DNA of 64,000 nt from Hyphomonadaceae bacterium ML37 (GCA_027627685.1 CP091241.1:1292347-1356346); one strand, 5' to 3'; positions 9,083 through 42,331 are shown, counted from the stretch's first letter. The notes: generated from the letters alone by a model not told the origin. A program made the numbers and translations.

Positions 9083-9532
9083 TTGGCTGACGCACGCACT
9101 CTGGTTCTGACCCTTGATAGCGGGGATGTGGTCATCCGCCTGCGCGATGATCTGGCGCCCAAGCATGTGGCGCGCATCTCCGCGCTGGTGGAGGAAGGGT
9201 TTTATGACGGCCTGACCTTCCACCGGGTGATTGACGGCTTCATGGCCCAGGGCGGCTGCCCGCGCGGCAATGGCACCGGCGGCACGGGCGAGAAAATCCC
9301 GGCTGAATTCAATGACGCGCCCCATGTGCGCGGCGCCGCCTCCATGGCGCGCACGCAGGATCCGAACTCGGGCGATTGCCAGTTCTTCATCTGCCTGGAC
9401 GACGCGCGCTTCCTCGACCGCCAGTACACGGTCTGGGGCGAAGTGACCTCCGGCATGGAGCATGTGGACGCCCTGCCCAAAGGCGAGCCGCCGCGGTCGC
9501 CGGGCAAAATCGTGAAGGCAGTGGTGCAGTAG
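9083..9532 (+). CDS. Cytoplasmic cyclophilin-type peptidyl-prolyl isomerase
   Basis: A compact 149-residue cyclophilin of the PpiB type with no signal peptide. The active-site segments [13 protein letters not shown] and [19 protein letters not shown] are present. The tryptophan near residue 118 (YTVWGEV) that shapes the proline pocket is also present. The start is TTG at 9083, preceded by GGGAGA. It follows the exported cyclophilin by 15 bases and shares its active-site segment, so the two are probably an old duplication. queA follows after a palindromic repeat. Confidence 0.92.
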
Positions 9533-9548
9533 GAGGCGCTTCGTCTTT

Positions 9549-9683
9549 GTCTCCCCCCGCGTGCGGGGGGAGTGGCCCGAAGGGCCGAGGGGGGCTGGCA
9601 GAACAGGCATCTCCAGGCTTTGCAGAAGCCTCTTCCCCCCTCCGTCCGCTTCGCGGACACCTCCCCCGCAGGCGGGGGAGGAC
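9549..9683. repeat. Palindromic intergenic repeat (REP/MITE-like), copy 2
   Basis: The left arm is a hairpin of CTCCCCCC...GGGGGGAG (9551-9572) and the right arm is CTCCCCCGC/GCGGGGGAG (9661-9680). Inner stems TGGCCC/GGGCCG and GTCCGC/GCGGAC lie between. The build is the same as the copy at 2655-2787. It occupies the gap between the cyclophilin gene and queA. Confidence 0.65.
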
Positions 9684-9701
9684 AAGCATGGTTGCACCCC
9701 C

Positions 9702-10766
9702 ATGAAACTCTCCGATTTCGATTTCCACCTGCCCGAAGACCTGATCGCCCTGCGTCCGGCGCGGCCGCGTGATGCTGCGCGCCTGCTGCATGTGCGCGCG
9801 GGTCAGGGGCCCGAAGATCTGGGCGTGCTGGACCTGCCGGACTTGCTGCAGCCGGGCGATCTGATGGTGTTCAACGACACCCGCGTCCTGCCCGCCGCCC
9901 TCACGGGCATTCGCCCGGCGCGCGCCCATGGCGGGGGCGGGCCGGCGAGCATCGAGATCAATCTGCATCACCGCGATGGGCCGGATGTCTGGCGCGCCTT
10001 CGCGCGTCCGGCCAAGCGCCTGAAGCTCGGCGACCGGCTGGATTTTGCTGGCGGGCTCATCGCTGAGGTGAGCTGGAAAGGCGAGGGCGGGGAGGCGGCG
10101 CTGCGCTTTGACCGCGCGGGCGCCGCGCTGGATGCGGCCATAGACGCCGCCGGCGCCCCGCCTTTGCCGCCCTACATCGCGTCCAAGCGCGCCGCCGATG
10201 AGGCCGACCGCAGCGATTACCAGACGCTCTACGCCGCGCCGGACAAGACCGGATCGGTGGCGGCGCCTACGGCGGGGCTGCATTTCACCGAGCGCCTGTT
10301 CGCGGCGCTGGATGCGCGCGGCGTGCGCCGGACGCAAGTCACGCTGCATGTGGGGGCCGGCACCTTCCTGCCGGTGAAGACTGAAAATCTGGCCGAGCAC
10401 CGCATGCATGGCGAATGGTTTGAGGTGAGTGAGGCGGCGGCAGACGCTATCAATACCGCGAAGGCTGAAGGCGCGCGCATTATCGCGGTGGGCACCACCG
10501 CCCTGCGCACGCTGGAAAGCGCGGCCGATCAGGATGGCCGTATCAGCGCAGGATCGCGTGAGACCGACATCTTCATCACGCCGGGTTATGACTTCCGCGT
10601 CGTGGACGGGCTGATGACCAATTTCCACCTGCCCAAATCGACGCTGTTCATGCTGGTCAGCGCGCTGGCGGGGCTGGACGTGATGCAAGGCGCTTACGCC
10701 CACGCGATCCGTGAGCGCTATCGCTTCTTTTCCTATGGCGATTCCAGCCTGATCTGGCGGGCCTAG
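9702..10766 (+). CDS. queA: S-adenosylmethionine:tRNA ribosyltransferase-isomerase
   Basis: QueA builds the cyclopentene ring of epoxyqueuosine on tRNA using the ribosyl part of SAM. The protein has 354 residues. Recognisable blocks are the N-terminal [52 protein letters not shown] and the C-terminal [18 protein letters not shown] chose the ATG at 9702 because the family starts at MKLSDFDF; the frame is open upstream only through repeat sequence. A tgt gene often follows queA but does not here: the next gene is convergent and the two stop codons overlap. Confidence 0.95.
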
Positions 10767-10984
10767 TTGCGGCGGCGGTCGCGGTCGCGCTCACGCTCTT
10801 CTTCTTCGTCCTCATCCTTGCCGTCCGGCGTGACCAGATTGACCGTGCCTTCGGCCACATCGCCTGCGACGCGCACGGTGCCCACCGCAGCGCCCACGGC
10901 GAGGTCGGCAGCAGCGACGGCGATGCAGCCCGAGGTCAGGCAGGGTGCGGCCAGCACGGCGGCAAGAAGCATGAAACGCGGCAT
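10763..10984 (-). CDS. Small lipoprotein with charged tail
   Basis: A 73-residue product with a signal peptide ending in the lipobox LTSGC (Cys20), then a glycine/alanine/valine-rich hydrophobic stretch (residues 21-48). The tail is made almost entirely of Asp, Glu and Arg. It is similar in style to small alphaproteobacterial lipoproteins of unknown role. Its stop codon overlaps the queA stop by the shared CTAG. No enzymatic motif is visible and I cannot assign a function. Confidence 0.7.
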
Positions 10985-32511: not shown

Positions 32512-32587
32512 GGGCGGTTAGCTCAGTTGGTAGAGCATCTCGTTTACACCGAGAGGGTCGGCGGTTCGAGCCCGTCACCGCCCACCA
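32512..32587 (+). tRNA. tRNA-Val (UAC anticodon), integration target
   Basis: The acceptor GGGCGGT pairs with ACCGCCC, and CCA is encoded at 32585-32587. The anticodon stem TCTCG/CGAGA frames TTTACAC, giving anticodon UAC. The 3' part from 32542 on is repeated exactly at 42286-42331, so this tRNA is the attachment site of the element to its right and stays intact after integration. Confidence 0.96.
32542..32587. repeat. attL core: 46-bp direct repeat in tRNA-Val
   Basis: These 46 bases, from the anticodon loop to the CCA end, match 42286-42331 exactly, 9,744 bp away. The match starts at GTTTACACC and ends at CCCACCA; the bases on either side differ. This is the usual mark of tyrosine-recombinase integration into a tRNA gene. 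Confidence 0.95.
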
Positions 32588-32644
32588 TAAAAATCAAACA
32601 CATAAGCATATAAATTAATCCGGGTTCGGACAATGTGTGTCTTC

Positions 32645-32663
32645 CGGGTAACGCGCGGGGTAA
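32645..32663. promoter_or_regulatory. Candidate integrase arm sites, left end
   Basis: CGGGTAA (32645-32651) and GGGGTAA (32657-32663) lie 12 bp apart, 58 bp inside the attL core. Matching copies lie inside the right end at 42129-42164, so these are candidate arm-type sites for the element's integrase. Confidence 0.4.
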
Positions 32664-32685
32664 AAGTATCGGCGCCGGTACTTTT
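32662..32685. terminator. 24-bp palindrome ending the element's left side
   Basis: Arms AAAAGTATCGGC and GCCGGTACTTTT pair with one mismatch, with T-runs on both strands. It lies downstream of the leftward capsid operon and 75 bp from the att core, and probably stops transcription in both directions. Confidence 0.55.
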
Positions 32686-32694
32686 CGGTGCGGG

Positions 32695-32997
32695 TTAATT
32701 GAGTGTAGGCGGTTGGTCGCTATCGACCTGCGCCTCAAAATCTGCTTCCGGGATATTGGCAACGCGCGTTGCGGTCATTTGCTGGCGCTTGGACATGCCA
32801 GCGTCACGGGCGGCGTCTGACCTAGTGTCGCCAGCGGCACTAGGTTCTAGATCAGTGCGCGCTCCGGCTTTTGGCTCTATCTGCTTCAGCAATTCGCCCG
32901 CTCGCCTGATCGCCCTAGCACGGATGCGGTCCGACATTCCCGCTTCATAAGCGGCGCTAGACCTACTGCTTGGGCCGCCGCCGTCCCGTGCGGGTTA
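32695..32997 (-). pseudogene. Remnant of a ParB-like/phage protein with repeated motif
   Basis: The leftward frame encodes RIRARAIRRAGELLKQIEP and then DAGMSKRQQMTATRVANIPEADFEAQV, a pairing found in larger phage and plasmid proteins related to ParB-like or methylase-linked families. Here it ends right after SDQPPTLN, and the frame has no good start: an ATG at 32937 gives 80 residues. Upstream of that ATG the frame continues to a stop at 32995-32997 and repeats the motif as RSSAAYEAGMSDRIRARA. A 24-bp near-palindrome (arms CCTAGTG/CACTAGG, 32821-32844) lies inside. I read it as a truncated, internally duplicated leftover at the element's end. Bases 32998-33223 hold no gene I can support. Confidence 0.5.
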
Positions 32998-33223
32998 TCA
33001 ATGGGCCGGCGCCGTCCCGTTGATCGCTGCGCAACGGGGTATCGCCAGAGGCATCCCGTTTCCGCGCCCCCTGCCTGAAACATGAATGCGCCCCCGGCGG
33101 GCGCGAAACCACCGGGGGCGCGTGCGGGTCATGTCAGCCCGCATTGCCGCGCGCGTCTCAATGGAGCCGGGCGCGGCGGATCAGCGGCGGGCCAGAGGAG
33201 ACGAAATCCCGCCGCCGATTCGG

Positions 33224-34285
33224 TCAAAGCTCCCAGTTCACCAGGCGGCCTGCATTGGCGATGGCGTCCGGTGACACGTCTGCGGCCTTCGCATCGGCCA
33301 GCGCGTTTAGAATGGCGTTGAGCGCGCGGGCGCGGCCTCCCGCGTCATAGGCTTGGAGCGGCGCCATCACGTCGAGGCTCACCGGCTGGCCGGTCTTGCG
33401 CTCGATTTCCTCTGCGATCCCGCCTGCTATTGGCTGGAGGGTCCATTGCGCCAGATGACGTTGAGCCTCGCGCACAAGCGTGCCTTGCGCCGTGCTGGAA
33501 AACCATGAGGGCAGGACGCCAAACGCCGTCAGGATCGCGCTGCGCGCCGCCTCAAGCGTTTCTTTGGTCATCGCGCGCTGAAGGTCCGGGGTCACGTCCT
33601 GCGGGCGCCAGTCCTGCGCCGGGGCCGCGCCACCGGCTGCGGTGACGTGAACCGACTCACGCAAGAGCACGCGGCCACGGCGGCCACGGAAGCCGCGTCC
33701 AAGGGCCTCCAGGTCGGTGTCCGGCGCTTCGGGGAATGGGACAATCTGCGAGCCTAGCGGGGCATTCTGGTACACGTCAGACAGTGCAGACTCCAGCGTG
33801 TGCAGAAGGCCAGCGGTCAGGCTGGAGCGTTTGAGCGGGGCAGTGCCAGACCAAGGGGCGGCCACGTCCGAACCGATGCGAAAATGCAAAACCTCGCCTG
33901 CCAGGGCGGTCATGCTTACGCCGCCCCCGGCTTCTGACACGCTGACACGATAGGCGCGGGGGATGCCGTCACGGGTCGCCAAGTCCCAATCCGCCGCCGG
34001 GATAAGCCGGTCCTCACGGATCAGGAATACCGCCTCGCCGCGCAGCGCCAGAGCGCGCCCGGCCAGTGCGAGGGTCTGGCGGTCAAGGTCGAAGCCGGAC
34101 ACGTCAGCAAGGCTTAATCCGTGCTCCCACAGAGACACGCAGCTTTGCGCCGTGGCGGTCAGCTCGCCAACGCCGCGCGATCCGCTAATCCAGCCCTCAC
34201 GGGCCGCGATCAATTCGGCGGTGAAGCCGGACGCGCTGGCGCGGGTTTCCTGTTTCGGCTCTGCGCGTTTGAAAAGTCCGAACAT
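33224..34285 (-). CDS. HK97-family phage portal protein
   Basis: The portal is the dodecameric ring at one capsid vertex through which DNA enters and leaves. The 353-residue protein has the family start (MFGLFKR), a V-x-A-C-V-like segment in ATAQSCVSLW near residue 47, and GEAVFLIRED. It also has PLKRSSLTAGL and the C-terminal AFGVLPSWFSSTAQGTLVREAQRHLAQWTLQPIAGGIAEEIERK. It is somewhat shorter than many HK97 portals (about 400). It is the last intact gene of the leftward capsid operon, three bases after the connector gene. In classic HK97 phages the portal precedes protease and capsid, so the order here is unusual. Confidence 0.88.
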   Translation of the reverse strand: MFGLFKRAEPKQETRASASGFTAELIAAREGWISGSRGVGELTATAQSCVSLWEHGLSLADVSGFDLDRQTLALAGRALALRGEAVFLIREDRLIPAADWDLATRDGIPRAYRVSVSEAGGGVSMTALAGEVLHFRIGSDVAAPWSGTAPLKRSSLTAGLLHTLESALSDVYQNAPLGSQIVPFPEAPDTDLEALGRGFRGRRGRVLLRESVHVTAAGGAAPAQDWRPQDVTPDLQRAMTKETLEAARSAILTAFGVLPSWFSSTAQGTLVREAQRHLAQWTLQPIAGGIAEEIERKTGQPVSLDVMAPLQAYDAGGRARALNAILNALADAKAADVSPDAIANAGRLVNWEL

Positions 34286-34288
34286 GGA

Positions 34289-34837
34289 TTAAGCCTTCCT
34301 GTAAATGCGCAGGAGGTCGCCAGCCCCGGACATGTCCAGAGCGCGCGCACGCCGCCACGGGTCGAACCGCGTCGATTCCTTCACGCCGCCAAGGTCGATG
34401 GAATGGGAGTAAGCGCCAGCCGGAACCGGCTCGTTTTCCACCTCGCCCAGATACTCGGCCAAGCGGCGGTAAGCCTCCAGCATGATGTCCGGCGGGGTTT
34501 CGGTGTCGCCTGCGGTGAACGTGATGCGATAGGGTGCGCGGCTGGAGAGATACACGCCGCCGCGCGGGGCCGTGGCGAGCGTGACGGCTTCCCAGCTTTC
34601 CCCGTTCCATGCCTCCGTCAGCGTGATTTCAGCCGGGCGCAAAGGCAGTTCAAACGGGCCGGGGCCGCCCTCCAGAATCACCTCCGCCGAGCGTGAAGCC
34701 CAGCGCCACGCAATGCGCCGTTCCAGCATGTGCCAAATGAAAGCGGCGGGGTAAGCGTCCGCTGCGCTCGATAGGCCGGACGGCTTGGCCGGGTAGGTGT
34801 CCGGGCGGCCTTCCTCAAAGCTCATAATCTCGATCAT
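34289..34837 (-). CDS. Head-tail connector (adaptor, gp6-like)
   Basis: Adaptor proteins form a ring beneath the portal and prepare the head for tail joining. The 182-residue protein has a helical N-terminal part (DAYPAAFIWHMLERRIAWRW), a beta-rich middle (FELPLRPAEITLTEAWNGESWEAV) and a helical end with PDIMLEAYRRLAEYLGE. This layout matches gp6-like connectors. It lies between protease and portal with gaps of one to three bases. Its presence without tail genes implies a head made ready for tails supplied from elsewhere. Confidence 0.75.
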   Translation of the reverse strand: MIEIMSFEEGRPDTYPAKPSGLSSAADAYPAAFIWHMLERRIAWRWASRSAEVILEGGPGPFELPLRPAEITLTEAWNGESWEAVTLATAPRGGVYLSSRAPYRITFTAGDTETPPDIMLEAYRRLAEYLGEVENEPVPAGAYSHSIDLGGVKESTRFDPWRRARALDMSGAGDLLRIYRKA

Positions 34838-34838
34838 G

Positions 34839-35444
34839 TCAGCGCCTCCAGCGGTACAGGGTGCGGCGCAAGCCCGCGTCCGGGGCCTCGCTGCATTGGC
34901 GGGTTACGCTTGCGCGCGCGGCGGCATAGGCGGGGCGGGTCACAAGGCTCATTTCGGCCAGCATGGCGCGCTTGATCATGCGCACGCGGGCGCCGTCCGG
35001 GGCCTCGCTCCAGCTTTCGGCGCTTTCCCTGTCAGGGGGAAGGCGGAAGCCGGGGGACAGGCCGGTGATCAATCCAGCCTCTGCGGCGGCGATGGCGTCT
35101 GCGGCGTAGGACGCGCGCAAGATGGCGGGGGTTATGTGCGCTTCCACCTCCAGCGCGTCGGGTGTGTCCCTGAAAGTCAGGGTGCCGGAACGCTTGGACG
35201 CCAGCGGCTTGTCAAAGCTATGGGCGGCCAGAAAATGGATCTCCGAATCCGCCGCGATAGCGTCTGCGAATGCGCCCGGTTCGATAACCTCGCGCACTTC
35301 ACCGCCATTGCGTCCACGTTCGACCAGAATTGCAGGGGAGCGGTAAGGGAAGCGCCCGCTAATGCGAACGCTCCCGTCACCTTCGCGGCGAAGCTCCAGC
35401 CGGGAAGCTAGGGCCGCGCCAAGCTGGAGTTCACCGTTTGCCAT
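34839..35444 (-). CDS. HK97-type prohead maturation protease (S78)
   Basis: This serine protease trims the capsid protein's delta domain during head maturation. The 201-residue product has the family's ISGRFPYRSPAIL start, VIEPGAFADAI, the catalytic His in FLAAHSFDKPLASKRSGTL, and the catalytic Ser in LITGLSPGF. The last conserved block is MLAEMSLVTRPAY. Its start codon overlaps the capsid gene's stop by one base. It should act on the capsid protein encoded immediately upstream. Confidence 0.9.
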   Translation of the reverse strand: MANGELQLGAALASRLELRREGDGSVRISGRFPYRSPAILVERGRNGGEVREVIEPGAFADAIAADSEIHFLAAHSFDKPLASKRSGTLTFRDTPDALEVEAHITPAILRASYAADAIAAAEAGLITGLSPGFRLPPDRESAESWSEAPDGARVRMIKRAMLAEMSLVTRPAYAAARASVTRQCSEAPDAGLRRTLYRWRR

Positions 35445-36712
35445 TAGGCGCCCCCGGCCAGTTCGACGCCGGTCAGGACTTCAAGCTGTTGCGCCCGGCT
35501 GATCGTGACGTCTGCGGTCACCAGCCCGGTAAGGCGAAGCCCGCCGGACTGCGCATCGGTGTACGGATCGCGCACAAGGTCGATCCCGCCCCACGTCGCC
35601 AGATACATGGGCGCTTGGCCGCCTGCGGAAGTGGTCAGCAGGACGGACGTTGCGAGCGGATCGCCAGCCGGTGCGCCAAGGGCATTCGAGGACATGGCGA
35701 AGTTCGCCGCCGGGATTGCCCGCGTCACCCGGTCCCATTCGCTGACGGACGTCCCGGTGATCAGTTCACCGTCGAGGAAGTCCCACAGCTCTGGCCGGAT
35801 CAGTGCGCGCACGTCAGCGGGCGAGGACGCTGCATTGCGAACCATGAAGCGGGTCACGGCGGCGCGCAGCAAAGCCCAGGACGCCAGCGCGTCTTCGGCC
35901 TCGACGTTGACGCCATAGGTCGCCGCGCCGGTGATGACGCCGAGCGGCTGGCCATTGGCGCCGGTTCCGAGGAATGCAGCTTCGTCCAGCTTGGCGCTGA
36001 TCGCGCCGTTCAGGTCGCGGCGGATAGCTTGCTCCAGACCGTCGCCAGCCTGTTTCAGAGCGCGCCGGCTGACACGCATCTGAACGCCGAGGGTGTGATC
36101 CGGTTTCATCGGACGGTCCACGGTCGTGAAGGCGGTAGGGCCTGAAACGTTGGCGTTTTCGCCATCCTGCCAGCCTGCGGACACGGCGCTGGAGGTCACC
36201 GGATATTCGACGCCACCGGACGCAATGTTGATCAGGCTCGCGCCCATGCGGCTGGCCACAGACTGCGGAAACAACCTGTCGATAATCGGCGCAGTGCGCA
36301 TCGGATCAGGGACGCCAGCAGCCACAGTGTTGCGCACTTCAAGGGCCTGCCACGGGACAGGCGTCCCGCGATAGCCGCCCTGCGCGCGCATCTCTTGGAC
36401 AATCTCGGCGGTCTGGCCGCTCAGGGCCGCGCCTTCATCGAGATGCAGTGCGATCTGGCGCAGCTCGAAATTGGCGAGCACGTCCGACCATTCGCGCTCA
36501 GAGCGGCCTTCGATCTCCTCGCCAGCCTCGCGGCGTTCGGCGGCCTCCGCGATCAGAGCGGCGCGATAGCGCTTTTCGTTCACGCGGTATTCCGTATCCA
36601 GCGAATCGAGTTCGCGGGTTTCGGTGTCGTTGGGGGTTTCGTTCGCGGCCAGTGCGGCCAGGCGCTCGCGCACCTCGCTTTGACGCCGCTGGATTTTCAC
36701 TGATTCAAGCAT
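35444..36712 (-). CDS. HK97-type major capsid protein with delta domain
   Basis: The 422-residue protein has an N-terminal alpha-helical, charged scaffold-like delta domain (residues 1-110, rich in Glu, Arg and Ala). The HK97 fold follows, with LFPQSVASRMGASLI, VEYPVTSSAVSAGWQDGEN and MKPDHTLGVQMRVSRRALKQAG. The C-terminal part has FMVRNAASSPADVRALIRPELWDFLDG. The cleavage point is likely near residue 110-125, before the E-loop region. It overlaps the HNH gene by 16 bases upstream and touches the protease gene downstream. Length is normal for the family, so heads of usual build are plausible. Confidence 0.9.
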   Translation of the reverse strand: MLESVKIQRRQSEVRERLAALAANETPNDTETRELDSLDTEYRVNEKRYRAALIAEAAERREAGEEIEGRSEREWSDVLANFELRQIALHLDEGAALSGQTAEIVQEMRAQGGYRGTPVPWQALEVRNTVAAGVPDPMRTAPIIDRLFPQSVASRMGASLINIASGGVEYPVTSSAVSAGWQDGENANVSGPTAFTTVDRPMKPDHTLGVQMRVSRRALKQAGDGLEQAIRRDLNGAISAKLDEAAFLGTGANGQPLGVITGAATYGVNVEAEDALASWALLRAAVTRFMVRNAASSPADVRALIRPELWDFLDGELITGTSVSEWDRVTRAIPAANFAMSSNALGAPAGDPLATSVLLTTSAGGQAPMYLATWGGIDLVRDPYTDAQSGGLRLTGLVTADVTISRAQQLEVLTGVELAGGA

Positions 36713-37017
36713 GGGGAGGTTTCCTTATTCATGAGGTCGCGCCACGCTTGGCGCTTGGGGTTGAGCGGTTTGTGGCCGCACTCGATGCGCGTTTTCGCCG
36801 TGTGACAGGACGCGCAAATCGTCTGGAGATTTTCGAGGTCGAAGGCGCGTTCGGGGTGCGTCCGCACCGGCTGGACGTGATCAATCTCGAGCCGGGTCCG
36901 GGCGCCGCACTGGACACAAGCCCAGCCATCGCGGCGCAGCGCCTCCAGGCGGACGGCCTGCCAGCGGCGCGTTTTCAGGACCGCGCGCGAGTAGCGGGGA
37001 AAGCGGTCTAAGCCCAT
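36697..37017 (-). CDS. HNH endonuclease (packaging-associated)
   Basis: HNH nucleases encoded next to terminases assist DNA cutting during packaging in HK97-like phages. The 106-residue protein has two zinc-binding pairs (CVQC near residue 35 and CASC near 70). Its ββα-metal site is EIDHVQPV, with ENLQTICASCHTAKT supplying the Asn and His. All expected residues are present. It overlaps the large terminase gene by 10 bases and the capsid gene by 16, which suggests coupled translation. Confidence 0.88.
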   Translation of the reverse strand: MGLDRFPRYSRAVLKTRRWQAVRLEALRRDGWACVQCGARTRLEIDHVQPVRTHPERAFDLENLQTICASCHTAKTRIECGHKPLNPKRQAWRDLMNKETSPCLNQ

Positions 37018-38525
37018 ATCGCCACCCTCGCTCGCTGCGCCGGGCGGCCCATGCGGCGCGCACCTTCGGCCACGGCCAGAACGGAGGCGCTTACCGCGTC
37101 GATCCGGCCATTAGAGCGGGCCTTGGCCAGCTTCAGATTGTTGGCGGGGTCGCGCAGGCATACCGCGTCCGCGAAGGCGCTGCGCAGCAGCAGGGACGGG
37201 CGGGATTTCACCTTCCCGTCATACGCTGCGCGGCGGAACCGCTCGCAATCTTCGCCGCCATCGCGGAAGCCCGCGCCTCGCCAGACAACCGGAGCCCGCA
37301 CGCCCGCGCGGTCCAGGGCCTCGCCAAACTCGGCTTGTTTGAAACGGTCGGCCACAACGGCGGCGATGGTCTCGCCTTCGGCCAGCGCCATGATTTCGGT
37401 CAGCCATGCCGCCGGGGGGACGGTTCGATCCCCTAGCGTGTTCAGCTCGCCGCGTTCGGCCATCTCCAGATAGCGCCCGCCAACGCCATCGCTGGCGCCG
37501 CGCTCGCCAAGGGGCGGGCTAGAGGGGAAGGTCGCAACGGTTTCCAAGCGGCCAGTTGCTGGCCAATACAATGCCGCCGCTGACATGCTGGCGGAACCGC
37601 CAAGGTCGATTCCGAGGATCAATTCGCCCTCGCGCGGGGGCAGGTCCACGGTCTCGCAGCCCAGCCATTCGTCCACGGTCAAAAGCAGGTCGCGGGTCTC
37701 GCCCGAAACTCGCTCATTGCGATTATAAAGTCTGAAACTTGTCAGGGTCGAACCGCCACGGGCGGCGGCGCGCTTGGCCTGCGCTTCGAGCCATTCCAGC
37801 GAACCGCCGATGCCATGCTTTGCGCCGGGGTTTGCCTCGATCAGTGACGGCATGTCATCAACCGGAAGGCCGGGGGCGGGGCGGTGCTCTTGCACATAGA
37901 CGCCCGCTTGTTCGGTGTCGCACCACTGTGAGAACGGATGCGCGTCATCCGGGGCGCTTGTCGAGATGATCAGGGCCTTGCCGCCGCGCTTCCCCAAACC
38001 GGACAAAAGAGCGTGCTCCAGCTCGTCGCCCCGGTCGCGCTGCCAGTGTCCGCGCTCATCCATCAGCACAAGGTTTGGAGCGCTGCCAAGAGCGCTCTTG
38101 CCGTCCGCCGCGATGGCTCGCAACGAGTGTTCGCCGCCGGTCGCGTCCTCGTAAATGATCTCCAGCCGGGGGGACCGCTTGAAGGTCAGCCGGGCTTGTT
38201 CGTCTTCGGGCAGGGACCGGGCAAAGCCCGCCACAAACTGCCATGCGATAGAGGCTTGATCACGCGTGCGGGCGGCGATCAGGATTTCCCGGCGCGGCTG
38301 ATCATCCCAGCGTCCCAAAAGGGCGCCCAGGGCGATGCCACCGGCCAGAGCGGTTTTTGCGTTGCCCCGGCCAATGGAAAGCACGGCGGTGTTGATCGCG
38401 GTGTCCAGCGCCCCGGTGACGAATTGGCGCTGGAAAGGCGCCAGCGAAACCGGCTTGCCCGCCAAGGGGCCTTCAGGAATCTTGAGGCTTTGCAGGAAGC
38501 GCGCGCACGCGGTCGAGGGCTTCAT
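37008..38525 (-). CDS. Phage terminase large subunit
   Basis: TerL is the ATPase-nuclease motor that packs DNA into the head. From ATG 38525 the protein has 505 residues. The ATPase domain has a Walker A variant GRGNAKT near residue 52 and Walker B LVLMDERGHW. The RNase H-like nuclease domain has its aspartates in ILGIDLGGSAS, AAVVADRF and GRIDAVSAS. The start follows a GGGGGG stretch; another ATG at 38597 (24 codons earlier) is possible, and the frame is open to 38720. The 123-residue gene just upstream looks like a neck protein, so no small terminase is next to it. Confidence 0.9.
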   Translation of the reverse strand: MKPSTACARFLQSLKIPEGPLAGKPVSLAPFQRQFVTGALDTAINTAVLSIGRGNAKTALAGGIALGALLGRWDDQPRREILIAARTRDQASIAWQFVAGFARSLPEDEQARLTFKRSPRLEIIYEDATGGEHSLRAIAADGKSALGSAPNLVLMDERGHWQRDRGDELEHALLSGLGKRGGKALIISTSAPDDAHPFSQWCDTEQAGVYVQEHRPAPGLPVDDMPSLIEANPGAKHGIGGSLEWLEAQAKRAAARGGSTLTSFRLYNRNERVSGETRDLLLTVDEWLGCETVDLPPREGELILGIDLGGSASMSAAALYWPATGRLETVATFPSSPPLGERGASDGVGGRYLEMAERGELNTLGDRTVPPAAWLTEIMALAEGETIAAVVADRFKQAEFGEALDRAGVRAPVVWRGAGFRDGGEDCERFRRAAYDGKVKSRPSLLLRSAFADAVCLRDPANNLKLAKARSNGRIDAVSASVLAVAEGARRMGRPAQRARVAIWA

Positions 38526-38607
38526 GGCCGCCCCCCGTGTAGCGAGAGCGGAAAACTCCCCTCCCCGGTCCCCCGGCGCACATTGATTCGCAGGCATTGG
38601 GACCAGC

Positions 38608-38979
38608 TCATAGCTTGCCCTTCCACCGGTACAGGATCGCCGTTTGGTCCGGGTCTGGCCGGACGGGTTCGACTTCCAAAAGCGTGACGGTTTCGCCGCC
38701 AATCGTGAGGGTGTCGCCAATGGCGGGGACCGCGCCAGTCGCCAGCGTATTGATCAGGCCATGCCGCTCGCCAGCGTCCAGGCCGGGCGTGACGCCAAAG
38801 GCTGACTTGCTGCCGGTGTCGATAGCGCGCACTGCATGGCTGACTTCGGTCTGGACCGGGTTTCCCCAGCCATCGGTCCCGCCGTCCTCGATACGGGTCA
38901 GCGTTGCCGCCCCGCCAAACTGGAGGGTCAGCCGGTCAGCAGCCTTGCGGTGCCGTGCATTTGGGTAATTCGCGCCCAT
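38608..38979 (-). CDS. Probable head-closure/neck protein
   Basis: A 123-residue beta-rich protein with a DGWGNPVQTEV turn and a GLDAGERHGLINTL segment. A hallmark-like ending, AIGDTLTIGGETVTLLEVEPVRPDPDQTAILYRW, follows. Stopper and neck proteins that close the head after packaging share this P-x-x-GD-x-I-x-x-GG pattern. The identification is by pattern only. It is the first gene of the head operon and follows an AT-rich region with a palindrome, so it probably starts the late transcript. Confidence 0.6.
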   Translation of the reverse strand: MGANYPNARHRKAADRLTLQFGGAATLTRIEDGGTDGWGNPVQTEVSHAVRAIDTGSKSAFGVTPGLDAGERHGLINTLATGAVPAIGDTLTIGGETVTLLEVEPVRPDPDQTAILYRWKGKL

Positions 38980-39009
38980 GCTTCAAATATAGCACGGGGC
39001 AATATACAG

Positions 39010-39027
39010 TAGAATAATCTCATTCTA
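39010..39027. promoter_or_regulatory. Palindrome in the presumed late promoter of the element
   Basis: TAGAATAATCTCATTCTA has perfect 6-bp arms 6 bp apart, in an AT-rich 76-base gap between the replication and head genes. On the leftward strand it lies just upstream of a TATATT -10-like box. No consensus -35 is present, so an activator may bind here. Confidence 0.5.
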
Positions 39028-39055
39028 TAACATAGCCTATCAGAAAGCGCGCCCT

Positions 39056-39532
39056 TCACTCGAAAACATCAGGAATGCGCTTCAGCGCGAAGGCCGCCAT
39101 TGTTTTGCGGCGCTCTGGTTCGAGGGCGACGGCTGCCATCTCCAGGTCACGGATCAGCTCACGCCGTGGCCGGGCGACACGCTCCAGCTCCTCGCGCAGC
39201 TCGCACCACGCGGGCCACCATTTGTTGTTGTCCGGCCATGCGTGCAGCACCTTCGCAACCACGTCTGCGGGATAGTCGGAGAGCCGGTCCACATACGCCG
39301 CCATGCGCAGGCGCGCTTCCGTTTCCGATTGCTGGCGCGATTGAACAAGAGCGGCGTTCATCGTGGCGAGCATTCCGGCCAGCTTCGCGCGGCTGGCTGG
39401 AGGGGCATTGCTGCGAAGCTCTTGAGCCGCTTCAGCCATGTTTGCTGCCGAGCCTGAATAACGCCGCCATCCGATTGCGACTTCTTCACCGTCGATCCGG
39501 GGCATAGAGTTGGCGTCGCAGCTACTGGCCAT
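39056..39532 (-). CDS. Putative helicase-loader-like (lambda P-like) replication protein
   Basis: From ATG 39532 the protein has 158 residues, mainly helical. The C-terminal half contains AAYVDRLSDYPADVVAKVLHAWPDNNKWWPAWCELREELE, a pattern seen in phage replisome-organiser or loader proteins. The frame is open upstream to 39745, and ATG 39694 has a good GAAGGA site. That would overlap the initiator gene by 173 bases, so I prefer the start inside the initiator's last codons. The position directly after an iteron-containing initiator mirrors the lambda O-P pair. Confidence 0.55.
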   Translation of the reverse strand: MASSCDANSMPRIDGEEVAIGWRRYSGSAANMAEAAQELRSNAPPASRAKLAGMLATMNAALVQSRQQSETEARLRMAAYVDRLSDYPADVVAKVLHAWPDNNKWWPAWCELREELERVARPRRELIRDLEMAAVALEPERRKTMAAFALKRIPDVFE

Positions 39533-40094
39533 CCGCGTTGAAATATTCCATCGCGATTTCAGCCATAGAGACACCGGCGCGTCCGGGTTTGCGTGGCTGG
39601 CCAGACTGCGGTCCAGGCCGCGCGCCAGCGTTTCCAGATTCGGGGCTTCGATTAAATCTGCTCGCGCGAGTGCGCTTTTGCTCAGCGTTTCCATAAGCAT
39701 TTCCTTCAGTAGTTCGGGGGGCCGTGTGGCCCGTGTTTGTGGCACCGTCTGGCCCGTGTTTGTGGCACCGTCTGGCCCGTGTTTCTTCGGGGGGGCCGTG
39801 TGGCCCGTGTTTGGGATAGAAGATGGTTTTCCGGCTGCGCCCGCCGGATGAACCGCGATCAGCGATAAAGAACGCGCCTTCGATATGCTGGCGGATCATC
39901 CGCCGCACCGTCCGCTCGTTACTGCCCAGCTGTGAGGCGAGGCGATCCGCACCCGGATATGTCGCACCGGTTTCAGCGTTTGCGTGAAGGGCCATCAGCA
40001 CGCCGACACGCGCCGCCAGCGGCGGAATGTCCGCGCACACGAGCGCATGAATCAGCGCCGCACGGTCAGCCTGGGGGAATGGGTGTGCTGTCAT
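39522..40094 (-). CDS. Putative replication initiator with winged-helix domain (lambda O-like)
   Basis: The 190-residue protein has an N-terminal winged-helix/HTH_36-like domain: VGVLMALHANAETGATYPGADRLASQLGSNERTVRRMIRQH near residues 30-70. A basic, low-complexity middle follows and then a short helical end (SMAEIAMEYFNADG). ATG 40094 is preceded by GAAGGGG. Its coding region contains four direct copies of a 12-bp repeat, as lambda O carries the origin iterons in its own gene. This and the loader-like gene after it support a replication role, but no residue proves it. Confidence 0.6.
   Translation of the reverse strand: MTAHPFPQADRAALIHALVCADIPPLAARVGVLMALHANAETGATYPGADRLASQLGSNERTVRRMIRQHIEGAFFIADRGSSGGRSRKTIFYPKHGPHGPPEETRARRCHKHGPDGATNTGHTAPRTTEGNAYGNAEQKRTRASRFNRSPESGNAGARPGPQSGQPRKPGRAGVSMAEIAMEYFNADGQ
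39713..39812. repeat. Four iterons inside the initiator gene (candidate origin)
   Basis: TGGCCCGTGTTT occurs at 39727, 39750, 39773 and 39801. The first two copies belong to a perfect 23-bp tandem unit. A flanking TTCGGGGGG-CCGTG motif precedes copies one and four. Spacings of 23, 23 and 28 are not multiples of three, so the copies are read in different frames and the protein is not repetitive. Selection is therefore probably on DNA, as for iterons. Confidence 0.65.
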
Positions 40095-40123
40095 GGCCGC
40101 CCCTTCGCGCCGAGCGTGGCCAA

Positions 40124-40330
40124 TCAAGCGCTGTTACGCTGCCGTTCAATCCATGCCAATATTTCTGACAGCCACCAATGTCGGCGTTTGCCGATGTAGA
40201 TTGGCTTCGGAAAGTCCAGCTCAGGATCAGCGAGCATCCGCCATATTGTCATATCGCTTTTCCCGCCAAGCAATTCCTTGACTGGATTGGCGGTGATCAG
40301 GCGGTCGTTTTCGGTATCAGAGAGTGTCAT
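40124..40330 (-). CDS. AlpA-family transcriptional regulator/excisionase
   Basis: AlpA-type proteins are small MerR-like HTH proteins that activate genes of P4-like and PICI-type satellites or act as excisionases. The 68-residue product has the typical run LGGKSDMTIWRMLADPELDFPKPIYIGKRRHWWLSEILAWIERQ. GGAGCG precedes the ATG. It is the only clear regulator in the element and stands between the integrase side and the replication genes, so it is the likely switch. Confidence 0.88.
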   Translation of the reverse strand: MTLSDTENDRLITANPVKELLGGKSDMTIWRMLADPELDFPKPIYIGKRRHWWLSEILAWIERQRNSA

Positions 40331-40416
40331 TGTGTCGCTCCATGTTGAACACGGGATACACAGTGACGCAGCGTTAGCTTGATGTAATCCGCACGATTTT
40401 GAGATTTCTGCGGAGA

Positions 40417-40851
40417 CTATATATTGAGATAAGGCTCTAGTCGCCGCTTACCATCATAATATCGCCTCTCGGCATAGGAAGGACTCACATTAAGAAATTC
40501 CGCAATAGCCTCGAACAAACCTTTGTCTGTTTTCATTTTTTTGTCTTCTGAAAGGATGCGCTGGCCTGTCAGGTAGCAGGCTATTTCATCATGGGTCCGC
40601 CCCTCTTTTAGGTGCTTTCCTTTCTCAAACGGCGCGCCGAACGCCTGATCCCATGAGCGAACACGCTCTTGCACCACGTCATCAACTGACGTGATAAACG
40701 CCTCTCGCGCCCAGTCCGGAACCGGGCGATTCCACGCGAGCGCATCGCGCACCGCATACAGTAGCGCCTTGCCGTCACCGTTCTGCCACTGCTCGCGCAA
40801 GGCGGTTTCCATGAGCGCGTGAAGGTCCGGCGTGTCAGTCTTTTCTGTCAT
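40417..40851 (-). CDS. Hypothetical protein coupled to the integrase
   Basis: A 144-residue soluble, mostly helical protein starting MTEKTDTPDLHALM. It includes DALAWNRPVPDWAREAF near residue 35 and a C-terminal segment (FLNVSPSYAERRYYDGKRRL) that may be helix-turn-helix-like. Similar unnamed proteins often sit beside integrases in proteobacterial islands. Its ATG overlaps the integrase stop by four bases, so the two are co-translated. It could be a regulator or, less likely, the missing small terminase. Confidence 0.65.
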   Translation of the reverse strand: MTEKTDTPDLHALMETALREQWQNGDGKALLYAVRDALAWNRPVPDWAREAFITSVDDVVQERVRSWDQAFGAPFEKGKHLKEGRTHDEIACYLTGQRILSEDKKMKTDKGLFEAIAEFLNVSPSYAERRYYDGKRRLEPYLNI

Positions 40852-42098
40852 CGCCGCGCCTCCAGCTCGATCACATTGGCCGGGGCCTCGCCGCTCACGA
40901 TGGCGCCCACCCGGCGCTCCCAAGCCTCCAGCGCCTCGCGCTTTTCTGTCGCATAATCAAAGCGATTATAGACGCGCGCAATTCCCTTAATGATCCCCGT
41001 CCGGTGATTCAGGACGGCCTCGATAAAGTGAGGCGGGATGCGAATTTCAGCCATCCCGGAAGCGGCGGTGCGGCGCAAATCGTGAATGCGGAAGGGCGCA
41101 ATCTCCACCGGCGAGCCGCGTTCCTTTGCCGCCGCCTCTGCCATGAGCCGGTCAAGCCGGGCCTTGGCCTTCGAGCGGCCCGATATAGGCGTGTCGCCGG
41201 TCGTGGTGAAAACGAGGGCGCGATCCCCGATCACGGGTGCGGCCTCGATTATCGCCGCCACGGCTGGCGCCAGAGGGATTGCGTGCGCCTCGCCATTCTT
41301 GGCGCGCTCTGGCGGTATCACCCATGTGTCGCCATCAATCTCGCGCCGGGTCATGCCGGTCACCTCGCCCACGCGCTGGCCGGTTAAGAGGCACACGCGC
41401 AGCGCATCGCCAAACGGGTATCCCATCGCCCCGGTTGCCTGCCAGAACCACCGGACTTCATCGGCGGACAGGACGCGATCACGGCTCTTGCTTTCAAAGG
41501 GCTTTTCCATTCCAGCCATCGGGGAGGCGGCGATCCAGTCGCGTTGAATAGCCCAGTTCAAAAGAGCGCGCAGGGCCTCAAACGTCCGGTTCGCCATCGC
41601 CGGGCGGTCAGCGAGAATGTCCAGCACGTCCAGCACGTCCCGCTTTGTCAGCTTGGCCACCGGGCGCGATCCGATCACCGGCAACACATACACGTCGAAT
41701 ATCCGCTTCACCTCTCCGATTGAGCGGATGGCCTTTTGGCGAGGTCGGAGCTTCAGATACTCCGCCACAAGGGCGCTCACCGTGTCCCCGCGTTTGTGTC
41801 CGGCTGCGCCGGTCTCGCGCCTGCGCTGCGCTTTCTCTTGTGCCGGGTCTGCGCCGCGCTCGATCCGCTCCAGCGCCTTCACGGTCATCTCGCGGGCCTC
41901 TGCCAAGCCCAGATCAGGAAACCGGCCAAGGGTCAGCTTCCGGCTGCGATCATTCTGGCGGTATCGTACTGCCCAGCTTTTCCGCCCGCTCGGCTGAACG
42001 ATCAAATAAAGCGCGCTCTGTCCTGGGTCTGGTATCTCCAGCCGCTTTGACGGGTCTGGAGCCAAGTTTCGCACAGTCAGGTCTGTGAAACGCTTCAC
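40848..42098 (-). CDS. int: Tyrosine-recombinase integrase (P4-like)
   Basis: This enzyme inserts and excises the element at tRNA-Val. The protein has about 416 residues. The N-terminal arm-binding domain carries KSWAVRYRQNDRSRKLTLGRFPDLGLAEAREM. A SAM-like core-binding domain follows. The catalytic domain has Arg in LLTGQRVGEVTGMT, HDLRRTAASGM, a late His in VLNHRTG and the nucleophile Tyr in VYNRFDYATEKREALEAW. The start is uncertain: GTG at 42098 has AAAGGTG upstream, while GTG at 42119 or 42107 would lengthen it. The gene lies next to attR, as expected. Confidence 0.93.
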   Translation of the reverse strand: MKRFTDLTVRNLAPDPSKRLEIPDPGQSALYLIVQPSGRKSWAVRYRQNDRSRKLTLGRFPDLGLAEAREMTVKALERIERGADPAQEKAQRRRETGAAGHKRGDTVSALVAEYLKLRPRQKAIRSIGEVKRIFDVYVLPVIGSRPVAKLTKRDVLDVLDILADRPAMANRTFEALRALLNWAIQRDWIAASPMAGMEKPFESKSRDRVLSADEVRWFWQATGAMGYPFGDALRVCLLTGQRVGEVTGMTRREIDGDTWVIPPERAKNGEAHAIPLAPAVAAIIEAAPVIGDRALVFTTTGDTPISGRSKAKARLDRLMAEAAAKERGSPVEIAPFRIHDLRRTAASGMAEIRIPPHFIEAVLNHRTGIIKGIARVYNRFDYATEKREALEAWERRVGAIVSGEAPANVIELEARR

Positions 42099-42128
42099 GC
42101 GGAGCACCTTTCGATTCACGAGGCTCTG

Positions 42129-42164
42129 TTACCCGGAGGCTCTAGGGGTAAATCGGCGGGGTAA
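42129..42164. promoter_or_regulatory. Candidate integrase arm sites, right end
   Basis: TTACCCG (42129-42135, inverted) and GGGGTAA at 42145-42151 and 42158-42164 lie just upstream of int. They match the pair inside the left end. The gap 42120-42285 has no gene I can support. Confidence 0.4.
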
Positions 42165-42285
42165 TAGGCGTCGTTTTGCTTCGATATATCGGAAGCTATC
42201 ACAAGCCCGAAATATGTGTCTAGACAGGCGTTTGCGAGCGCTCTGGCGTTCGGGTCTGATAGGCACTGAAAGGGGGGATAAAATA

Positions 42286-42331
42286 GTTTACACCGAGAGG
42301 GTCGGCGGTTCGAGCCCGTCACCGCCCACCA
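42286..42331. repeat. attR core: displaced 3' part of tRNA-Val
   Basis: An exact 46-bp copy of 32542-32587. It is only the 3' part of the tRNA and is not a functional tRNA gene. It marks the right end of the element. Confidence 0.95.

Follow-up and report, generated by a model that had tools for sequence, protein, structure and literature searches.

Does a compact element in a tRNA-Val gene of Hyphomonadaceae bacterium ML37, which encodes a phage head but no tail, represent a capsid-forming satellite, or is it what is left of a prophage? The window analysed here is a stretch of 64,000 nucleotides (GCA_027627685.1, CP091241.1:1292347-1356346), and positions are counted from its first base. The first-pass annotation, made from the sequence alone, had favoured a satellite that makes its own heads and takes its tails from a helper phage. 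With the family-level evidence set out below, we consider it very likely that the element is a capsid-encoding phage satellite that functions like the capsid-forming PICIs (cf-PICIs) and belongs to a lineage confined, in the sampled genomes, to Alphaproteobacteria. Dependence on helper tails is the inferred part of this reading.

The features of the element are listed in Table 1. The 46 bp exact repeat corresponds to the 3′ part of tRNA-Val, its two copies are identical, and the tRNA gene is left complete. The start-to-start spacing of the attachment repeats is 9,744 bp. When the outer flanks are joined, they align end to end with two genomes of the same genus, G012 (90 %) and G001 (87 %). As the empty site is contiguous in both, the 9,744 bp must have been inserted, and the element is integrated at tRNA-Val. 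This agrees with the perfect direct repeat around 9.7 kb that had been described at the outset. As to the accompanying suggestion, that the same element be sought at tRNA-Val in related genomes, these two genus-mates have an empty site and a third, G010, has a related element at tRNA-Ser. The G010 element is approximately 9.97 kb long and is bounded by a 14 bp repeat, without a longer exact repeat, that was found by a short-repeat search. It has a different integrase from the ML37 element, and its head proteins are 55–77 % identical to those of ML37.

Table 1. Features of the ML37 element and its integration site, in window coordinates
Feature	Position	Strand	Basis
tRNA-Val(tac), integration target, intact	32512..32587	+	Rfam tRNA match
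Attachment repeat within tRNA gene	32542..32587		Exact repeat search
Phage cargo gene fragment, 80 aa	32695..32937	-	phrog_33995 positions 64-143 of 224, E 1.5e-21
Terminator-like hairpin 3′ of portal gene	33088..33121	-	13-bp stem; consensus match only
Portal protein	33224..34285	-	PF04860 Phage_portal, E 1.8e-10
Head-tail adaptor ('connector')	34289..34837	-	Fold; no convincing sequence match
Prohead protease S78	34839..35444	-	PF04586 Peptidase_S78, E 1.1e-17
HK97-fold major capsid protein	35444..36712	-	PF05065 Phage_capsid, E 1.4e-13
HNH endonuclease of packaging module	36697..37017	-	PF01844; phrog_144
Large terminase TerL, HK97-type	37008..38525	-	phrog_9, E 1.9e-53; ATPase and nuclease families
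Head closure protein Hc1	38608..38979	-	phrog_161, E 2.3e-11
Helicase-loader-like protein, G39P-like, weak	39056..39700	-	PF11417, E 0.009; 57 % identical in G010
Replication initiator	39522..40127	-	HTH_36 / phrog_270, E 2.7e-7; 57 % identical in G010
Four iterons, mostly 23-bp period, AAACACGGGCCA.ACGG	39716..39813		Inside initiator gene
AlpA/excisionase-type HTH regulator	40124..40330	-	PF05930, E 1e-3; phrog_66, E 1.4e-5
144-aa protein, no family	40417..40851	-	Sub-threshold C-terminal HTH match, Sigma70_r4_2
Tyrosine integrase	40848..42119	-	PF13356, PF00589, PF22022; catalytic motifs present
Second attachment repeat, integrase side	42286..42331		Exact repeat; empty site in G012 and G001

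The element has 12 genes, all on the minus strand and all unbroken, in the order integrase, 144-aa protein, AlpA-like, initiator, loader-like, Hc1, TerL, HNH, capsid, protease, adaptor and portal from attR to attL. The integrase carries the Arm_DNA-bind_3 and Phage_integrase domains. Among the fetched family loci, the AlpA-type regulator has 22 matches and the 144-aa protein no homologue; the PF05930 match of the former falls just below the gathering score, with phrog_66 backing the same assignment. Profile searches of the element placed no tail or lysis gene in its gene list, and catalytic motifs are present in the integrase, protease, HNH protein and TerL. Thus most of the original inventory stands, namely a leftward set of integrase, AlpA, initiator, neck, TerL, HNH, capsid, protease and portal genes, tail and lysis genes being absent and the catalytic residues of four enzymes intact. 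The loader match is weak, and the connector is recovered by fold and not by sequence. A small correction is that the 80-aa phrog_33995 fragment sits between the portal gene and attL, so that part of a cargo gene is missing at the end nearest the tRNA.

The iterons are probably the replication origin. The G010 element has the same iteron (AAACACGGGCCA.ACGG; L004 5227-5290) at the matching place in its own initiator gene, and as the two elements differ in tRNA site and integrase, the common iteron suggests that the origin is embedded in this gene. In phage lambda, the origin likewise lies within the initiator gene, O. The element may therefore direct its own replication using the host helicase. 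We note that the initiator and loader-like genes overlap by about 220 bp in different frames (39522-39745 in ML37, 5267-5490 in L004) and that, over this region, the ML37 and G010 elements align at about 57 % in each of the two frames. This is probably explained by conservation at the DNA level around the iterons together with a loader that in fact begins further downstream.

In the packaging module, the TerL profile of the family matches a solved large terminase, 6z6d (E 4.8e-54), which we take to be HK97 TerL. Because a TerL of HK97 type has an HNH gene beside it, cos-type packaging would be the likeliest mode. A small terminase was not recognised: no TerS family matched in the element, and a phmmer search with the P27 TerS as query found no homologue among the genes of about 120 loci of the family. 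The AlpA-like HTH proteins resemble TerS of the Nu1 type, and one gene of the element (144 aa) is without a family. A 123-aa gene, A6, that is conserved upstream of the connectors in the family has no family match and is absent from the window.

Relatives of the element are numerous. The capsid search of IMG/VR gave 40 loci, and TerL and portal searches gave 479 and 427, respectively. With the capsid, 196 relatives were also found in genomes, and in the 80 of these that were examined every named host is an alphaproteobacterium or an unplaced proteobacterium, the orders represented being Rhodobacterales, Hyphomicrobiales, Sphingomonadales and Hyphomonadales. The portal was found in 6 of 398 genomes drawn across the phylum, all six in the class of ML37, and in 36 of 296 sampled genomes of one family in that class. 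We take this family to be Rhodobacteraceae-like, because most named matches are Rhodobacterales. When the class was sampled evenly, the capsid was found in 3 of 385 genomes. Among the strains with a member are Ruegeria pomeroyi SZCCDBG043 (L057) and Rhodobacter capsulatus DSM 1710 (L124). On the capsid tree there are 11 changes among the four orders, against a minimum possible of 3, and this mixing of orders suggests horizontal movement, to which contamination of bins may add.

Gene order within the cassette, terL-(hc1)-hnh-mcp-prot-(hta)-portal, is preserved nearly without exception in 121 loci. Two layouts are seen. In the ML37 type the integrase is at the end distant from the tRNA gene. In the second, which is commoner and found in Rhodobacterales, the integrase adjoins the tRNA gene and there is a gp6-type connector (phrog_442) and a PF05521 closure protein. 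Elements bounded by a tRNA attachment repeat of at least 28 bp (n=27) measure 10,365 +/- 371 bp (range 9,367-10,939) and occupy Cys, Thr, Phe, Lys, Leu, Asn, Gln and Val tRNA genes; Glu and Ser are added when shorter repeats are admitted. No tail family occurred among the matches listed, which cover 25 of the 42 accessory-gene families of the bounded elements. Apart from a primase, none of their accessory proteins exceeds 302 aa, so the accessory genes are too short to encode a tape measure or a tail fibre. In L053, L048 and related loci, a zone of 3 kb lies between the portal and the tRNA gene, and many Rhodobacterales members have there a variable set of small genes and, on the opposite strand, a repressor of the XRE type; this is likely to be a zone for regulation and cargo. 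One member (L145) immediately follows a different phage-like remnant, which has a separate integrase and head genes, an arrangement that suggests tandem insertion at one site.

These data bear on the main rival, that a complete prophage was stripped of its tail and lysis genes and left this remnant. The cargo gene cut short near attL would fit such a history, as would the unusually long branch of the ML37 capsid (0.59 in the tree) and the broken state of some members, for example L120 with its 3.8 kb gap. However, the same tail-less layout and size recur in dozens of independent insertions, the ML37 genes are intact, and purifying selection acts on the family's head genes. The median dN/dS is 0.24 for the capsid, 0.22 for TerL, 0.31 for the protease, 0.25 for the portal, 0.24 for HNH and 0.26 for the adaptor, each value being a family median and not that of ML37 (the ML37 capsid included) alone. 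Phage, plasmid and viral collections held no relative with a tail at comparable identity. The closest known phages are 27 % identical in TerL and at most 27 % in the capsid, and the portal, closure and adaptor proteins had no match among 50,697 phage records. The broken or relaxed genes and the complete-phage relatives expected of a decayed prophage are thus not what this element shows, its relatives being tail-less and about 10 kb long. On the conserved collinear cassette, the uniform size and the purifying selection, we therefore reject decay, which appears highly improbable. The first-pass annotation had named relatives inside complete prophages as a finding that would overturn the satellite; none was seen, and the searches of head proteins and gene order that it proposed returned discrete tail-less elements of about 10 kb in many tRNA genes and, for some, as circles.

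The uniform size of the elements, despite large sequence divergence, would be expected from a packaging limit. It weighs, together with the retention of a full packaging set including TerL, HNH and portal, against the idea that the head genes serve interference with phages, as decoys or through mis-assembly, instead of transmission. The idea has a precedent in the remodelling of helper capsids by capsid homologues of PICIs (PMC6092414), but we regard it as extremely improbable here.

Family members also exist as excised or episomal circles. Complete-looking members among the 172 viral loci examined cluster at 9.5-11 kb. Two metagenomic contigs are exact circles, namely L147 (10,022 bp with a 99 bp terminal overlap, giving 9,923 bp) and L242 (9,766 bp with a 127 bp terminal overlap, giving 9,639 bp), and L193 is a near-exact circle of about 10.64 kb. 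No integrase was detectable in any of these three, and L242 and L193 carry primase-type genes. As the exact circles have no integrase, they are not evidence on the excision of ML37-type elements. L200 is a circularly permuted contig in which a tRNA-Cys-like stretch adjoins an integrase gene. It may be an excised form; its tRNA-Cys piece covers a different half of the gene than in integrated relatives and is no more than consistent with attP. L186 was rejected as a clean circle, its ends being 86 % identical over 732 bp. L147, L242, L193 and L034 form a set of integrase-less, circular or permuted contigs that measure 9.6-10.7 kb and in some cases carry primase-type genes; they are possibly the alphaproteobacterial counterpart of the Vibrio cf-PISP satellite-plasmids.

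By analogy with cf-PICIs, we infer that the ML37 satellite is induced by a helper phage and borrows its tails. The helper would trigger the AlpA-type switch, the integrase would excise the element, and the initiator would bind the iterons in its own gene and load the host helicase. A small head would be assembled from the element's own portal, capsid and protease, the HK97-type TerL and HNH protein would package the DNA, probably by a cos mechanism, and the adaptor and closure proteins would seal the head. A helper tail would then dock on it, and the helper would lyse the cell. A resident helper was not seen in the few families searched in the ML37 genome; PF10145 tape measure genes were not found, and the one other HK97-type capsid gene and the one Terminase_6C gene are both in a gene transfer agent (GTA) cluster at about 2.05 Mb. 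This cluster corresponds to G000:C1 2040000-2059999 (L138). A superinfecting phage is therefore taken as the default helper. We count against the satellite the unrecognised TerS, the absence of a resident helper among the families searched, the capsid branch length and the truncated cargo gene.

The GTA cluster, as the only tail-bearing cluster found in ML37, raises another alternative, in which the element has no tail from a free phage and its heads couple to host GTA tails, or are released without tails or inside vesicles. The adaptor, which has 173 tblastn matches among the family loci (some overlapping), was modelled with AlphaFold2 from an alignment of 28 sequences (pLDDT 89), and the nearest solved folds by VIA-align are those of the neck adaptor from the Rhodobacter GTA (Z 9.4-9.7). 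Other phage necks come after it, the next score being 7.6. The connector of the Rhodobacterales type is 27 % identical to the ML37 GTA connector (E 1e-6). However, the GTA-type neck is a general siphovirus fold, the searches of the host for other tails covered a few families, and the cf-PICI precedent relies on phage tails (PMC10690885). We consider this alternative unlikely, and GTA tails in the role of helper would be a bold proposal with no support beyond the modelled adaptor fold. Still less probable is its extension, an ancient alphaproteobacterial satellite lineage that encodes no TerS for its packaging, uses both GTA and phage tails and has a domesticated GTA as helper.

If the mechanism proposed for a phage-dependent satellite is true, capsid-forming satellites extend into Alphaproteobacteria on a large scale, as the portal counts in one family indicate, and prophage counts and gene transfer models for marine bacteria need revision. 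Such elements would sit in databases disguised as 'incomplete prophages' of about 10 kb. The lineage is smaller and poorer in genes than the described cf-PICIs, would show a minimal head-and-packaging kit, and would raise the question of how DNA is packaged without an obvious TerS. It is not described in the open literature searched, but an earlier listing in the primary cf-PICI paper or the SatelliteFinder catalogue is possible.

Several known systems share parts of this gene set. HK97-type siphoviruses have the TerL, capsid, protease, portal and HNH families in common with the ML37 element but, at the low identities given above, are complete phages with tail and lysis genes. RcGTA-type clusters also encode alphaproteobacterial HK97-type heads, and theirs is the neck nearest to the ML37 adaptor fold, but they include tails and are without an integrase or att sites. 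In Streptomyces, MulchRoom and MiniFlayer are satellites with their own capsid and packaging genes that are reported to be unrelated to cf-PICIs; as described, they are set apart from the ML37 family by their actinobacterial hosts, virulent helpers and direct terminal repeats (PMC10690885). The cf-PISP of Vibrio is an episomal satellite-plasmid of 15.8 kb with parA/repA that clusters with gammaproteobacterial cf-PICIs (PMC13230959). The circular, integrase-less L147 and L242 resemble it in having head genes without a tail, but the contigs of the ML37 family measure 9.6-10.7 kb and have alphaproteobacterial affinities, and the ML37 element, unlike cf-PISP, is integrated and has an integrase.

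The closest functional likeness is to the cf-PICIs, which are described as having genes for the capsid, protease, portal and connectors, for HNH and for both subunits of the terminase, so that tails are all they need from a helper (PMC10690885). Their mean size is 14 kb, as compared with about 10.4 kb for the ML37 family, and their hosts are mainly enterics, Pasteurella, Morganellaceae and Firmicutes (PMC10803314). Capsid, protease, portal, head-tail connectors, TerL, HNH, an integrase with att sites and an AlpA-type regulator (sub-cut-off PF05930) are all present in ML37. For direct comparison, we used an element of Escherichia coli EDL933 (NZ_CP008957, 1,680,329-1,694,760), which has the cf-PICI gene set, including a P27 TerS, and no tail genes. 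This is the CP-933C locus, checked by annotation, which we take to be EcCIEDL933. A PerC gene at the locus agrees with the description of EcCIEDL933 (PMC11773190). Common to the two elements are an integrase, AlpA-type HTH, replication gene, capsid, S78 protease, portal, closure, connector, HNH and TerL, and neither has tail or lysis genes. However, the order is mcp-prot-portal-closure-connector-HNH-TerS-TerL in EDL933 and closure-TerL-HNH-mcp-prot-adaptor-portal in ML37, and a P27 TerS is found in EDL933, whereas the ML37 family has no recognisable TerS. TerL is about 24 % and the protease about 31 % identical, the portal similarity is marginal and the capsids have no detectable similarity. 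The homology and gene order of the gammaproteobacterial cf-PICIs were thus not found in the ML37 element. Given the different order, the distant or absent similarity and the lack of a TerS match, we describe its function as cf-PICI-like and leave formal membership aside, the best reading being a separate minimal lineage that works like the capsid-forming PICIs.
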